Source: a bacterium (GTDB taxonomy: Bacteria > Sysuimicrobiota > Sysuimicrobiia > Sysuimicrobiales > Thermofontiviventaceae). From it: a stretch of 35,495 bases of DNA. Below the pieces are notes generated by a model. It did not search any database. It was not told where the DNA came from and was given only the letters and a program-made list of their open reading frames with translations. This document shows positions 5,794-34,792 of the stretch, piece after piece. The DNA lies in the NCBI GenBank assembly GCA_030550015.1, contig JAUQQG010000031.1:1-35495 (forward strand), written 5' to 3'. The first letter of the stretch is position 1; every line of letters starts with the position of its first letter. Position numbers and translations under genes: made by a program.

Positions 5794-5824
5794 CAGGGCC
5801 CCCGTCCAAGGGACGAAGGCCCTG
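5794..5824 (-). terminator. T-box terminator hairpin upstream of pheS
   Basis: On the minus strand CAGGGCC pairs with GGCCCTG, with an additional inner GTCC/GGAC pairing, directly after the T-box sequence. It is the expected alternative to the antiterminator. The tail is AAGATTTC, a weak U-tract, so efficiency as an intrinsic terminator is uncertain. Confidence 0.7.
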
Positions 5825-6150
5825 CCTCCGCGGTACCACCCTCCTTCCGGCAGCGGGCTCTCCCACCGCCGGCACTCAGGTCTGGACGCTATCGGGATCC
5901 CCGGTTACCCTACTTAACCCGCTGGACCTGTGCCTTCAAGGCGAAGCCAGGTCTGCGGTGTTCAGGCAACGGCTCGGAAGCGAACTTCAGCCACCTCAGC
6001 ACCAGGAGAGCTTCCAGTCGCGGCCCTCCCTCCCTGTCCCCTCCCCCTTAGAGTCGGCCTCTCCAAGGCCTACAGAGGAGAGTGCGGCACGAGGGTTGGC
6101 CTACTCCTCTTCCTCATTGCCCATGGCCTGACTCCGACAGGCCATGATAG
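5794..6150 (-). promoter_or_regulatory. T-box riboswitch (Phe specifier) controlling pheST
   Basis: Read on the minus strand, the leader contains every T-box landmark. The kink-turn side is AATGAGGAAG with an AGTA-containing specifier loop near 6105-6120. The opposite strand of stem I carries GAAG-TTC-G-CTTCC-GAG, in which CTTCC pairs with GGAAG and exposes the phenylalanine codon TTC (5982-5984). The invariant AGGGTGGTACCGCGG lies at 5828-5842. Uncharged tRNA-Phe is expected to pair its anticodon with TTC and its ACCA end with the TGGT bulge, stabilising the antiterminator and turning on pheST. The 5' boundary is approximate; an 8-bp hairpin (ATGGCCTG/CAGGCCAT) occupies 6121-6145. No convincing promoter was found just upstream. 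Confidence 0.92.
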
Positions 6151-31027: not shown

Positions 31028-33478
31028 CTACTCGGTGACCACATTCACGAGGCGGCCTGGAACGACGATAACTTCCTTGACCCGCTTCCCATTTAAGAAC
31101 TTGCGGACCTTCTCCCTCCCTAGGGCCAACTCCCGCGCCATCTCCTCGGTGATGTCTGCGGAAACGGTGACCCGGTCGCGGACCTTCCCATCCACCTGGA
31201 TGACCAGGGTGATCTCCTCCTCCTTTACCCACTCCTCTTCCCAGCGAGGCCACGGCTGGTTGTGGACGCTGTATTCCCCTCCTAGACGTGCCCACAGCTC
31301 CTCTGCCAAATGCGGCGTGATCGGAGCCAGGAGGAGGACGAGAGTGCGGATCGCCTCATCCCATAGCTCGTGCCGTGCAAGAGGAGTCTCCTTGGCCCTT
31401 GCGAGGTAATTGGTGTACTCCATGAGCGCCGCGATCATGGTGTTGAACCGGAAGTTCTCTATATCCTCCGTAGCTTTCTTGATGGTCCGGTGGATCCACC
31501 GGCGCATCTCCCGGATGGCTTTCTGGCTAGGCCGGCCCTGGACAGGCCCCGGCGGCTCCGTCACCAACGCCCAGACCCGGTGCAGCCAGCGGTGGACCCC
31601 TTCGATTCCCTGAGGATCCCATGGCCCGCCCTCGTTCCACGGCCGCATGAACATGAGGTAAGCCCGCACCGTGTCAGCCCCGTACCGCTGGACCTGCTCG
31701 TCGGGATCGACCACGTTCCCTCTCGATTTGCTCATACGCTGCCCGTCGGGGCCGAGGATGATCCCTTGGTTATACAGACGAAGCATGGGCTCGTCGAACC
31801 AGACCAACCCGAGATCCCGCATCGCTTTCGTGAAAAAGCGCGTGTACAGCAAGTGCATGGTGGCGTGTTCGATCCCACCCGTGTACTGGTCTACGGGGAG
31901 CCAGTAGCGCGCGACCTCAGGATCGAAGGGACCTTCCTGGTAGTGGGGGCTCAGGTAGCGGTACTGGTACCAGGAGGAGTCTACGAATGTGTCCATCGTG
32001 TCCGTCTCACGCTCCGCAGGGCCCCCGCAGCGTGGGCAGGTAGTCTTTCGGAAGCCCTCGTGGTACTTAAGCGGCGACTCCCCTGTGGGAAGGAACTCAG
32101 CATCGTGAGGCAGGATCACCGGAAGGTCTTCTTCAGGGACGGGAACGGTGCCGCAGCTCGGGCAGTAGATGATGGGGATGGGAGTCCCCCAGTAGCGCTG
32201 GCGGCTGATGAGCCAGTCGTGCATGCGGTAGTTGGTCTTGCGGCGGCCGATCCCCTTTTCCTCCATGTAGTCGGCGATGCGTTCCCACCCCTCCTTGGAG
32301 GGAAGGCCGGTGAAGGGTCCAGAGTTGACCATGGTGCCTTCCTCGATGTAGGCCTGCTCCAAGGGTTCCCCGTTCCACCCAGGGGGAGCGATGACCACCC
32401 GAATCTCCAGGCCGTACCGCCGGGCGAAGTCAAAGTCCCGCTCGTCATGGGCAGGAACCCCCATGATTGCCCCCGTGCCATAGGTGAGCAGGACGTAGTC
32501 GGCGATCCAGATGGGCACTTCCTCGCCGTTCATGGGGTTGATGGCATAGGCGCCGATGAAAACCCCATCCCTTTCGCGCTCAGTGGCCTGGCGCTCGATA
32601 TCGGAGGAACGCGCAGCCTTCATCTTGTAGGCCTCCACGGCCTCCCGGCACTCCGGCGTTGTCAGCCTGTCCACAAGGGGATGCTCCGGGGCCAGCACGA
32701 CGAAGGTCATCCCGTACACGGTGTCAGGGCGCGTGGTGAATACAGGGATTTCCACGTCGGGATGGCCCTTGACAGGGATGCGGAACTCCACACCGCGGCT
32801 GGGGCCAATCCAGTTCTGCTGGAGGATGCGCACAGGTTCGGGCCAGTCAAGCTTGCTGAAGTCCAACAGCTCCTCCGCGTACGCGGTGATCCGGAAGAAC
32901 CACTGCTCCAGGGTCTTCTTGATCACCGGCGTCCCACACCGTTCACACACGCGTTCCTCCCCCACCACCTGCTCGCGCGCAAGCGAGGTATTGCACTTCG
33001 GGCACCAGTCCACGGGGGCGAGTGCGCGGTAGGCCAGGCCACGTTCGTAGAACTTCAGAAAGAACCATTGGTTCCACTTGTAGTATTCGGGGTCACAAGT
33101 GACGATCTCCCTGTCCCAGTCCCACATTGCGCCCATGGATCTCAGTTGCCTGCGCATGCGCTCGATGTTCTGCATGGTCCAGGTATAGGGGTGAATGCCG
33201 TGATTGATGGCTGCGTTCTCCGCGGGGAGGCCGAAAGCGTCAAACCCAATAGGGAGCATCACGTTGTACCCGCGCATGCGCAGGTATCGCGCTTTCGCAT
33301 CGGAGGGTGCCATGGCATACCAGTGCCCAATGTGCAGGTCCCCGGAGGGGTACGGATACATGGTGAGGAAGTAGTACTTGGGGCGGGGGTCGAAATCCGG
33401 AGCATGGTAGAGCTTGTCACGCTCCCAACGCTCCTGCCATCGCGCTTCGATTTCCTGGGGATTATACCGCTCAGCCAT
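31028..33478 (-). CDS. leuS: Leucyl-tRNA synthetase
   Basis: Class I synthetase of 816 aa, the bacterial length. The HIGH motif is YPSGDLHIGHWYAMAPSD near residue 40; the CP1 editing domain is present with VFTTRPDTVYGMTFVVLAPE (T-rich editing site) and GTGAIMGVPAHDERDFDFA with its conserved Asp. KMSKS is QRMSKSRGNVVDPDE. The zinc-type CPKCNTSLAREQVVGEERVC lies between. A C-terminal domain ends ITEEMARELALGREKVRKFL. All activities appear intact. The ATG at 33476-33478 lacks a strong ribosome binding site but fits the family start MAERYNPQEIEARWQERWE. Transcription is expected from 33910 through the T-box leader, which contains tRNA-Ala. Confidence 0.97.
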   Translation of the reverse strand: MAERYNPQEIEARWQERWERDKLYHAPDFDPRPKYYFLTMYPYPSGDLHIGHWYAMAPSDAKARYLRMRGYNVMLPIGFDAFGLPAENAAINHGIHPYTWTMQNIERMRRQLRSMGAMWDWDREIVTCDPEYYKWNQWFFLKFYERGLAYRALAPVDWCPKCNTSLAREQVVGEERVCERCGTPVIKKTLEQWFFRITAYAEELLDFSKLDWPEPVRILQQNWIGPSRGVEFRIPVKGHPDVEIPVFTTRPDTVYGMTFVVLAPEHPLVDRLTTPECREAVEAYKMKAARSSDIERQATERERDGVFIGAYAINPMNGEEVPIWIADYVLLTYGTGAIMGVPAHDERDFDFARRYGLEIRVVIAPPGWNGEPLEQAYIEEGTMVNSGPFTGLPSKEGWERIADYMEEKGIGRRKTNYRMHDWLISRQRYWGTPIPIIYCPSCGTVPVPEEDLPVILPHDAEFLPTGESPLKYHEGFRKTTCPRCGGPAERETDTMDTFVDSSWYQYRYLSPHYQEGPFDPEVARYWLPVDQYTGGIEHATMHLLYTRFFTKAMRDLGLVWFDEPMLRLYNQGIILGPDGQRMSKSRGNVVDPDEQVQRYGADTVRAYLMFMRPWNEGGPWDPQGIEGVHRWLHRVWALVTEPPGPVQGRPSQKAIREMRRWIHRTIKKATEDIENFRFNTMIAALMEYTNYLARAKETPLARHELWDEAIRTLVLLLAPITPHLAEELWARLGGEYSVHNQPWPRWEEEWVKEEEITLVIQVDGKVRDRVTVSADITEEMARELALGREKVRKFLNGKRVKEVIVVPGRLVNVVTE

Positions 33479-33529
33479 ACGCTTCCCCCCTGCTGCTCCG
33501 TTTTGGATCTCTTCCTAGTTTTGAACTAA

Positions 33530-33564
33530 GCGGCCCTCCGCCCCGCCAGGGACGGAGGGCCGCT
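33530..33564 (-). terminator. T-box terminator hairpin upstream of leuS
   Basis: AGCGGCCCTCCG pairs perfectly with CGGAGGGCCGCT (12 bp, 11-base loop), directly downstream of the T-box sequence. The tail is TAGTTC rather than a T-run, so termination may depend mainly on the strong stem. It lies downstream of tRNA-Ala. Confidence 0.75.
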
Positions 33565-33605
33565 CCGCGGTACCACCCTGCTTGACAGAACCCGTCACGA
33601 AGACG

Positions 33606-33680
33606 TGGTGGAGCTGGCGGGACTTGAACCCGCGACCTCCTCCACGCCAAGGAGGCGCTCTCCCTCTGAGCTACAGCCCC
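33606..33680 (-). tRNA. tRNA-Ala (GGC), inside the leuS T-box leader
   Basis: A complete 75-nt cloverleaf. Acceptor GGGGCTG pairs with CAGCTCC, including the G3-U70 pair that identifies alanine tRNA. D stem GCTC/GAGC has a 7-base loop. Anticodon stem CCTCC/GGAGG carries loop TTGGCGT with anticodon GGC. The variable loop is AGGTC, T stem GCGGG/CCCGC has loop TTCAAGT, discriminator is A and CCA is encoded. No mismatch disturbs any stem, so the gene should be functional. No separate promoter was found directly upstream; the leuS promoter 240 bases away is the likely source. The terminator lies after it, so it is transcribed whether or not leuS is. Confidence 0.96.
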
Positions 33681-33916
33681 AAGTCCTCGCCCATCTGGGC
33701 ATAGACACCCATTCAAGGGCCCGGATCTGTCCACTCATTGCCCCTAACGCCGGCCGCGGCGCGGATTACGCATCCCTTCTTGGGAGTTCAGCCGCGCAGC
33801 TCCCGGGCGAGTTCAGGAACGGCTTCCCACGGGCTTCCACCAGTCCCCGCTCGCTTGAGAGGTCGCAAAGGGAAGAACCGCCCTTACTACTCCCGTTCAT
33901 TGCCTTTCGTGGAATG

Positions 33917-33946
33917 ATTATAAAAAATGGAAGCCTGCATCGTCAA
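33917..33946 (-). promoter_or_regulatory. Promoter for the leuS T-box leader and tRNA-Ala
   Basis: Minus-strand TTGACG (33941-33946), 18-base spacer, perfect TATAAT (33917-33922). Start of transcription is expected at about 33910, just before stem I of the T-box. Confidence 0.88.
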
Positions 33947-34015
33947 GGAAAGTGTTTTGTGATACAGTGTACCCGGGGATCCATGAGCACCCACCAAGAG
34001 GGCGGGAGAGGGAAT

Positions 34016-34792
34016 ATGCACTTCGTCCTCGCGTTCCTCGACCAAACCGGGCGGGCAACGCTCGCCCTCCTACGGCAGATTATCAAGGTCTTCGATCTCC
34101 TCGGGCAATCCGTAGGGTGGCTAGTCCGCGGTCGCTGGGAGCTCCAGCAAACCGTGACCCAGATGGCCCGGGTGGGGGTGGAGTCACTGCCCATCGTGAT
34201 CATCACAGGCCTGTTCTCGGGCATGGTCCTTGCTTTCCAGACCTCCCGCCAGTTCCTCCAGTTCGGCGCCCAGGGATTCATCGGGGGGCTTGTGGCGGTC
34301 ACCATGGCGAGGGAGGCAGCGCCAGTCTTCACGGCCGTGGTCATCGCCGGCCGGGTGGGAGCCGGGTTCGCCGCAGAAATCGGTACCATGGCGGTAACGG
34401 AACAAATCGATGCACTCCGCGCTCTCGGCATCGATCCCGTCCGTTACCTCGTTGTCCCGCGGTTGAATGCCTGCCTTGTGATGCTCCCTGCGCTCACCCT
34501 GTTCAGCAACCTCCTCGGGTCCGTCGGGGGGTTCTGGATCGCCACCCTCCAGGGGGTCGGGCCGGAGATCTACATAGAATCGATCCGCCGGTTCTTGGAC
34601 CTCTACGACCTTACTGGGGGCCTGATGAAGGCTTTGGTCTTCGGGGTCATCATTGCCATCATCGGCTGTCTTCGGGGAATCACCACCACGGGCGGCGCAA
34701 TGGGAGTGGGACGGTCCACGACCTCGGCTGTCGTGGCAGCGATTGTGGTCATCTTGATCGGCAACTATTTTCTCGACGTCTTGCTCTACTGA
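34016..34792 (+). CDS. mlaE: ABC transporter permease MlaE (lipid transport)
   Basis: Inner-membrane permease of the Mla/Mce-type phospholipid transporter, 258 aa, usual length. Recognisable segments are the N-terminal amphipathic part (LGQSVGWLVRGRW), SLPIVIITGLFSGMVLAFQT, VAVTMAREAAPVFTAVVIAG, and the family-defining GRVGAGFAAEIGTMAVTEQI followed by DALRALGIDPVRYLVVPR. ATG 34016 follows GGGAGAGGGAAT; an in-frame ATG at 33983 is an alternative and the frame itself continues through the leuS leader without homology. mlaF follows. The system moves phospholipids between inner and outer membrane, so a diderm envelope is inferred. Its MlaD (MCE) partner is not in the window. Confidence 0.94.
   Translation: MHFVLAFLDQTGRATLALLRQIIKVFDLLGQSVGWLVRGRWELQQTVTQMARVGVESLPIVIITGLFSGMVLAFQTSRQFLQFGAQGFIGGLVAVTMAREAAPVFTAVVIAGRVGAGFAAEIGTMAVTEQIDALRALGIDPVRYLVVPRLNACLVMLPALTLFSNLLGSVGGFWIATLQGVGPEIYIESIRRFLDLYDLTGGLMKALVFGVIIAIIGCLRGITTTGGAMGVGRSTTSAVVAAIVVILIGNYFLDVLLY

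Follow-up and report, generated by a model that had tools for sequence, protein, structure and literature searches.

A tRNA-Ala(GGC) gene at the tip of stem III in a leucine T-box riboswitch upstream of leuS

The window, a stretch of 35,495 nucleotides from a bacterial draft genome, carries a leucine T-box riboswitch upstream of leuS, and the apical part of its stem III is a complete tRNA-Ala(GGC) gene. The order of the parts, a single promoter-like site, the T-box landmarks, a covarying stem III and the sole-copy status of the tRNA in three genomes were all observed. We infer from these observations how the leader is expressed and processed. In the reading preferred here, which we consider about 75% probable, the element is a transcription-attenuating leucine T-box holding the cell's tRNA-Ala(GGC) gene in stem III, and its attenuated leader is the pre-tRNA-Ala. 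One short RNA seems to be both a leucine sensor and the precursor of an essential tRNA. As judged from sequence comparison, the nested tRNA recurs as a conserved arrangement in four phyla or more and is no one-off.

Organization of the leuS leader

The leader lies on the minus strand and contains the following parts.

33917-33946, minus strand: promoter TTGACG-18-TATAAT, with 11 of 12 consensus matches
33545-33909, minus strand: whole T-box riboswitch including the embedded tRNA (RF00230 model positions 1-219)
33809-33811, minus strand: leucine specifier CTC in the specifier loop of stem I (GAA-CTC), from sequence and alignment
33745-33750, minus strand: GCGTTA in the stem IIA/B region, from the RF00230 alignment
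33732-33736, minus strand: RRRxG motif (GAGTG) 5′ of stem III, as the motif is given in the discriminator passages of PMC7583486
33723-33731, minus strand: 5′ arm of stem III, GACAGATCC, from alignment, fold and covariation in relatives
33606-33680, minus strand: tRNA-Ala(GGC) with encoded CCA, apical part of stem III (ARAGORN; RF00005, 68.5 bits)
33584-33592, minus strand: 3′ arm of stem III, GGTTCTGTC, from alignment, fold and covariation
33582-33583, minus strand: conserved AA after the 3′ arm of stem III
33565-33579, minus strand: T-box sequence AGGGTGGTACCGCGG, 5′ part of the antiterminator
33572-33575, minus strand: UGGU bulge within AGGGTGGTACCGCGG
33547-33580, minus strand: antiterminator
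33530-33563, minus strand: terminator hairpin with a 15-bp stem, overlapping the antiterminator, from the fold
31028-33478, minus strand: leuS, leucyl-tRNA synthetase, the regulated gene (TIGR00396, 1008.6 bits)

A first-pass annotation, made from the letters alone, had already proposed the promoter, the CTC specifier, the GCGTTA/GAGTGG region, a flawless tRNA-Ala(GGC), the invariant T-box sequence behind the tRNA, and leuS downstream, and each of these was recovered. The tRNA has an intact cloverleaf, a GGC anticodon and A73. The terminator had been given as 12 bp, but its stem folds as 15 bp. It is followed by a weak U tract (TTAGTT), which is why the terminator/promoter scan scored no terminator here. 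The same scan found no other promoter-like site on either strand of 33440-34100 (shuffle mean 0.1), hence a separate promoter for the tRNA inside the leader was rejected.

A single RF00230 alignment spans both halves of the T-box (model 1-219, E 1e-16) at 75.9 bits, which falls below the gathering score of 93 bits. The alignment places stem I and the antiterminator in one T-box and opens an insert of 134 nt in stem III, which holds the tRNA. Because one covariance match spans both sides, the proposal of a leucine T-box with a tRNA-Ala gene placed between its sensor and its antiterminator stands. The host genome contains 15 T-box matches, and only the one in the leuS leader has a tRNA inside; it also encodes tRNA-Leu(GAG), which matches the CTC specifier. 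The second T-box of the window (5806-6126, minus strand) has an ordinary stem III without a tRNA and a score of 48.6 bits, under the gathering score.

In the Bacillota members with the same architecture, the RF00230 match spanning the tRNA reaches 99.7-119.4 bits, above the gathering score. In other members, T-box covariance matches spanning the tRNA score 43-81 bits, and in two loci (L096 and L104) RF00230 matches the stem I part only. A GAACTC-type specifier is present in 57 of the 64 loci scored, some of the 64 being cut by contig ends. The specifier, UGGU, RRRxG and AA are retained across phyla, as would be expected if the switch still works with the tRNA inside it. By every feature testable on sequence, the window element is a T-box.

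The tRNA gene as the tip of stem III

According to the passages of the review PMC7583486 that deal with the discriminator, the conserved motif of this T-box domain is 5′-RRRxG-stem III-AA-3′, and stem III is part of the aminoacylation-sensing domain. In the unconstrained minimum-energy fold of the window leader, the arms GACAGATCC (33731-33723) and GGTTCTGTC (33592-33584) pair with each other and enclose the tRNA cloverleaf together with three small hairpins. The paired arms are bracketed by GAGTG and AA, in agreement with the motif as those passages give it, and the tRNA can therefore be assigned to the tip of stem III with the functional flanks kept. The linker between specifier domain and antiterminator, which the tRNA had been thought to replace or extend, is thus better described as a stem III whose apical part is the tRNA and whose helix and RRRxG/AA flanks are retained.

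Covariation of the arms was measured on 40 distinct arm pairs that represent the host phylum, Anaerolineae and Bacillota; the set excludes two loci with no clear arm (L221 and L227) and some others. The arm strings were cut by script and joined by a filler loop, and the 5′ arm was picked among RRRxG sites by pairing, which biases the result somewhat toward pairing. Standard pairs made up 92.9% of the base-pair cells in this set versus 65.0% in shuffled sets, and slid registers were 19-41% paired. The covariation score was 0.830 versus 0.281, and two-sided changes occupied 104 cells versus 34.7 in shuffles. In an unconstrained search, the arm was found directly behind RRRxG in 52 of 63 loci. 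From the covariation and this placement, the helix enclosing the tRNA looks selected as a helix. The spacers between stem III and the tRNA range from 0 to tens of nt. In one family (f4; L108, L118 and L131), repeat-like hairpins beginning with GCACCACTCGC and GACTCCGCTCAGGGCGGCC enlarge the stem III insert and leave the arms undisturbed.

Distribution across phyla

The search pattern, applied to whole genomes, consisted of a tRNA T arm and, behind it, GGGTGGHACCRCG; its reversal served as the control. The pattern was found in 19 of 43 genomes and 13 of 22 genera of the host phylum, where two further cases with longer spacers (L118 and L131) come in addition to the 19. It was also present in 69 of 396 genomes of an Anaerolineae class (the one with the Anaerolineales MAG UBA6131), in 79 of 399 genomes of the phylum containing the Bacillota MAG AS08sgBPME_117, with one place (G575:C52) that looks false, and in 4 of 150 genomes of a phylum with Actinomycetota MAGs in it. 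None of the 148 Dehalococcoidia genomes contained it. The reversed pattern gave zero matches in every genome scanned, which, together with the recurrence in many genera, indicates that the arrangement is not due to chance.

Individual reading covered 19 loci of the host phylum, 30 of Anaerolineae, 12 of Bacillota and 3 of Actinomycetota, the other matches being counted by pattern alone. A few of the loci read are cut by contig ends (e.g., L208 and L210), and in L264 no stem I is recognisable in the 330 nt read. The tRNA is kept in the leaders of related genomes, and it is tRNA-Ala(GGC) in all the loci read except one of Anaerolineae (L221), which carries Ala(CGC) and has lost stem I. The genes downstream of the nested leaders are leuS or the branched-chain aminotransferase gene ilvE (NCBIfam), often in the order ilvE-leuS. 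Two leuS-like genes stand side by side in some loci (L118, L131 and L139-L141, from G021, G022, G019 and others), one about 70-78% and the other about 50% identical to the window LeuS.

Most Anaerolineae leaders, 27 of 31, also carry a tRNA-Ala(CGC) immediately 5′ of stem I (L018, L020 and most of L197-L226), so that the leucine sensor would have an alanine tRNA on either side. The L018 copy of this tRNA has a promoter-like sequence ahead of it and is followed after 9 nt by the start of the T-box match. The presence of a second alanine tRNA fits the use of the leader as a tRNA precursor.

The sole tRNA-Ala(GGC) copy

Among the 40 tRNA genes of the host, in an assembly that is 94% complete and without a few expected tRNAs, the embedded gene is the one tRNA-Ala(GGC); the Ala TGC and CGC genes lie elsewhere. 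BLAST with the tRNA as query was abandoned as a test for second copies because it was too insensitive, having omitted a diverged tRNA-Ala(GGC) near the T-box in G005. Hence the covariance-search tRNA lists of two other genomes were read, with all their other short-form tRNAs. The embedded copy is the only tRNA-Ala(GGC) in both, that is, in G001, which is assembled in 4 contigs, and in G035, which is 100% complete by estimate.

Six long genes of the window use GCC more often than any other alanine codon. Given the sole tRNA-Ala(GGC), leader transcription is therefore probably needed for normal decoding of this codon. The sole-copy status would also make transcription of the leader not easily dispensable, which would explain the long conservation of the arrangement.

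Intermediate states and history of the locus

Several loci combine or separate the two elements in other ways. The T-boxes of G003 and G004 lack a tRNA, their stem III being a short hairpin of the ordinary kind; G005 has such a T-box too, and there a tRNA-Ala(GGC) stands upstream of the T-box promoter. At the loci L116 and L117, the tRNA is lost and stem III is closed by an ordinary hairpin. In L071 (an Anaerolinea MAG), the T-box is intact and free of a tRNA, and two alanine tRNAs precede it. Loss of the T-box is seen in the genomes G036, G037 and G039, which retain promoter, tRNA, terminator and ilvE, and at the loci L120, L121 and L123, which retain promoter, tRNA and terminator. Just upstream of leuS in one Bacillota locus (L237) and one Anaerolineae locus (L221), stem I is lost and the tRNA-Ala, a stem III remnant and the antiterminator are kept; these two may represent half-way states of T-box loss.

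In family f5 of the host phylum (L183-L192), neither T-box nor tRNA was seen at leuS, and tRNA-Ala(GGC) stands alone with its own promoter-like sequence and no T-box. This lone tRNA lies directly behind rsfS in 7 of 10 loci checked together, L192 included. The rsfS gene (PF02410) also precedes the T-box, its tRNA and leuS in five Bacillota loci (L227, L228, L229, L237 and L238) and in L105 of the host phylum. A neighbour common to two phyla speaks for common descent of the nested locus; its transfer between phyla is possible.

Proposed mechanism and alternative explanations

In T-boxes, the uncharged cognate tRNA favours read-through and the charged tRNA favours termination. Applied by homology to the window leader, RNA polymerase would start at the one promoter and would transcribe in turn stem I with its CUC specifier, the stem II region, stem III with the pre-tRNA as its tip, and the antiterminator/terminator region. 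Uncharged tRNA-Leu(GAG) would pair with the specifier and the UGGU bulge and stabilise the antiterminator, allowing read-through into leuS, whereas charged tRNA-Leu would leave the terminator formed; leuS would accordingly be expressed only under leucine shortage. Because the tRNA-Ala lies upstream of this decision point, each initiation event would yield it. The pre-tRNA-Ala would be the short attenuated transcript itself, and the T-box terminator would double as the terminator of the tRNA gene. RNase P and 3′ processing would then release the tRNA, probably after the decision, since the terminator stem ends only 76 nt beyond the 3′ end of the tRNA. Two points weigh against this account: the U tract of the window terminator is weak, and cleavage could come before the decision if the polymerase is slow or RNase P very fast.

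The first-pass annotation had argued that processing must cut the sensor from its effector. This need not be the case, as stem III could still pair the flanks after excision, and the retained helix could hold the cut halves together. A more far-reaching version, which we regard as possible and rather doubtful, is that of a split riboswitch coupled to processing, in which the tRNA is excised while the switch works, the halves are joined only by stem III, and tRNA maturation is linked to leucine sensing. If so, maturation could limit the lifetime of the antiterminated state or tie the supply of tRNA-Ala to leucine status.

A related explanation, somewhat less probable again, makes processing part of the switch: RNase P or a 3′ nuclease would cut before or during the decision, and the rate of maturation would set or reset leuS expression. 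The cut sites do fall exactly between sensor and effector, and the retained, covarying stem III could keep a cut leader together and readable. Such control is harder to reconcile with the variable spacers that separate the tRNA from stem III (0 to tens of nt) and with the lack of a conserved leader dinucleotide that could slow or time RNase P. A brake on RNase P by leader nucleotides pairing with the 3′ CCA has been described (PMC9433436). G-2U-1 is present in 9 of 12 Bacillota members, but also in 11 of 39 of the host's other tRNAs, and no enrichment was seen in the members from the host phylum and Anaerolineae. A conserved brake of this type was rejected, as enrichment is confined to the Bacillota members.

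A T-box that survives only as a dead relic, in a locus that is now a plain tRNA gene read from the old leader promoter, is improbable. End states of this kind do exist, the T-box being lost in L120, L121 and L123 and stem I in L237 and L221, and the weak U tract of the window terminator points the same way. However, all the T-box landmarks are intact in the window and in most members, and stem III covaries.

Still less credible is an action of the embedded tRNA in cis, for example by pairing of its 3′ ACCA with UGGU, by which the leader would also sense alanine or tRNA maturation. The embedded tRNA does encode ACCA, complementary to UGGU, in members from the host phylum and Bacillota. In Anaerolineae, however, only 4 of 31 members encode it at the end, so that in most of them the unprocessed RNA could not pair with UGGU, and the specifier is for leucine, not alanine. 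This pairing was accordingly rejected as a conserved mechanism. Finally, an assembly artefact, conceivable in a draft of 127 contigs, was dismissed, as the same order with covarying flanks recurs in independent assemblies of four phyla, including that of G001 in 4 contigs.

Relation to known systems and significance

The element resembles transcriptional T-boxes (RF00230; TBDB) in its stem I with specifier, stem II region, RRRxG-stem III-AA discriminator, UGGN antiterminator, competing terminator and downstream aminoacyl-tRNA synthetase gene. It differs from ordinary T-boxes, in which stem III is a short hairpin, as stem III here carries a complete tRNA gene for another amino acid. On sequence grounds, it is a T-box variant whose distinguishing trait is a stem III made of a tRNA gene.

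Other transcripts combine a tRNA with a second function. In tRNA-mRNA cotranscripts such as the tRNA-tufB operons, the transcript runs from a tRNA into a protein gene, and the tRNA is then cut out. The leuS leader likewise shares a transcript with a protein gene and would need excision of its tRNA; in tRNA-tufB, however, the tRNA lies beside the gene, whereas here a regulatory RNA domain encloses it and a conditional terminator follows. The tRNA genes in the spacers of rRNA operons are flanked by processing stems. Like them, the embedded tRNA would be cut from a larger precursor that is folded and can keep its flanks paired, but this precursor is a riboswitch and not an rRNA. Contiguous (tandem) riboswitches (PMC12452182) also place more than one RNA device in a leader, but they are serial sensor arrays, and the passages of that paper describing them mention neither a tRNA gene nor leuS. 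No description of a tRNA gene inside a T-box was found in full-text searches of an open-access library and passages of several T-box papers, a scope outside which two main T-box surveys lie. Because the score of some members exceeds the Rfam threshold for T-boxes, T-box collections may already contain them without a label.

The finding implies that one folded transcript can be both riboswitch and housekeeping tRNA. It challenges the view of attenuated T-box leaders as waste, as the short transcript here is probably a source of tRNA. It also raises a testable question, namely the fate of a cotranscriptional switch when RNase P cuts its middle, and it offers a natural construct for how far stem III can change while the sensing of aminoacylation persists.
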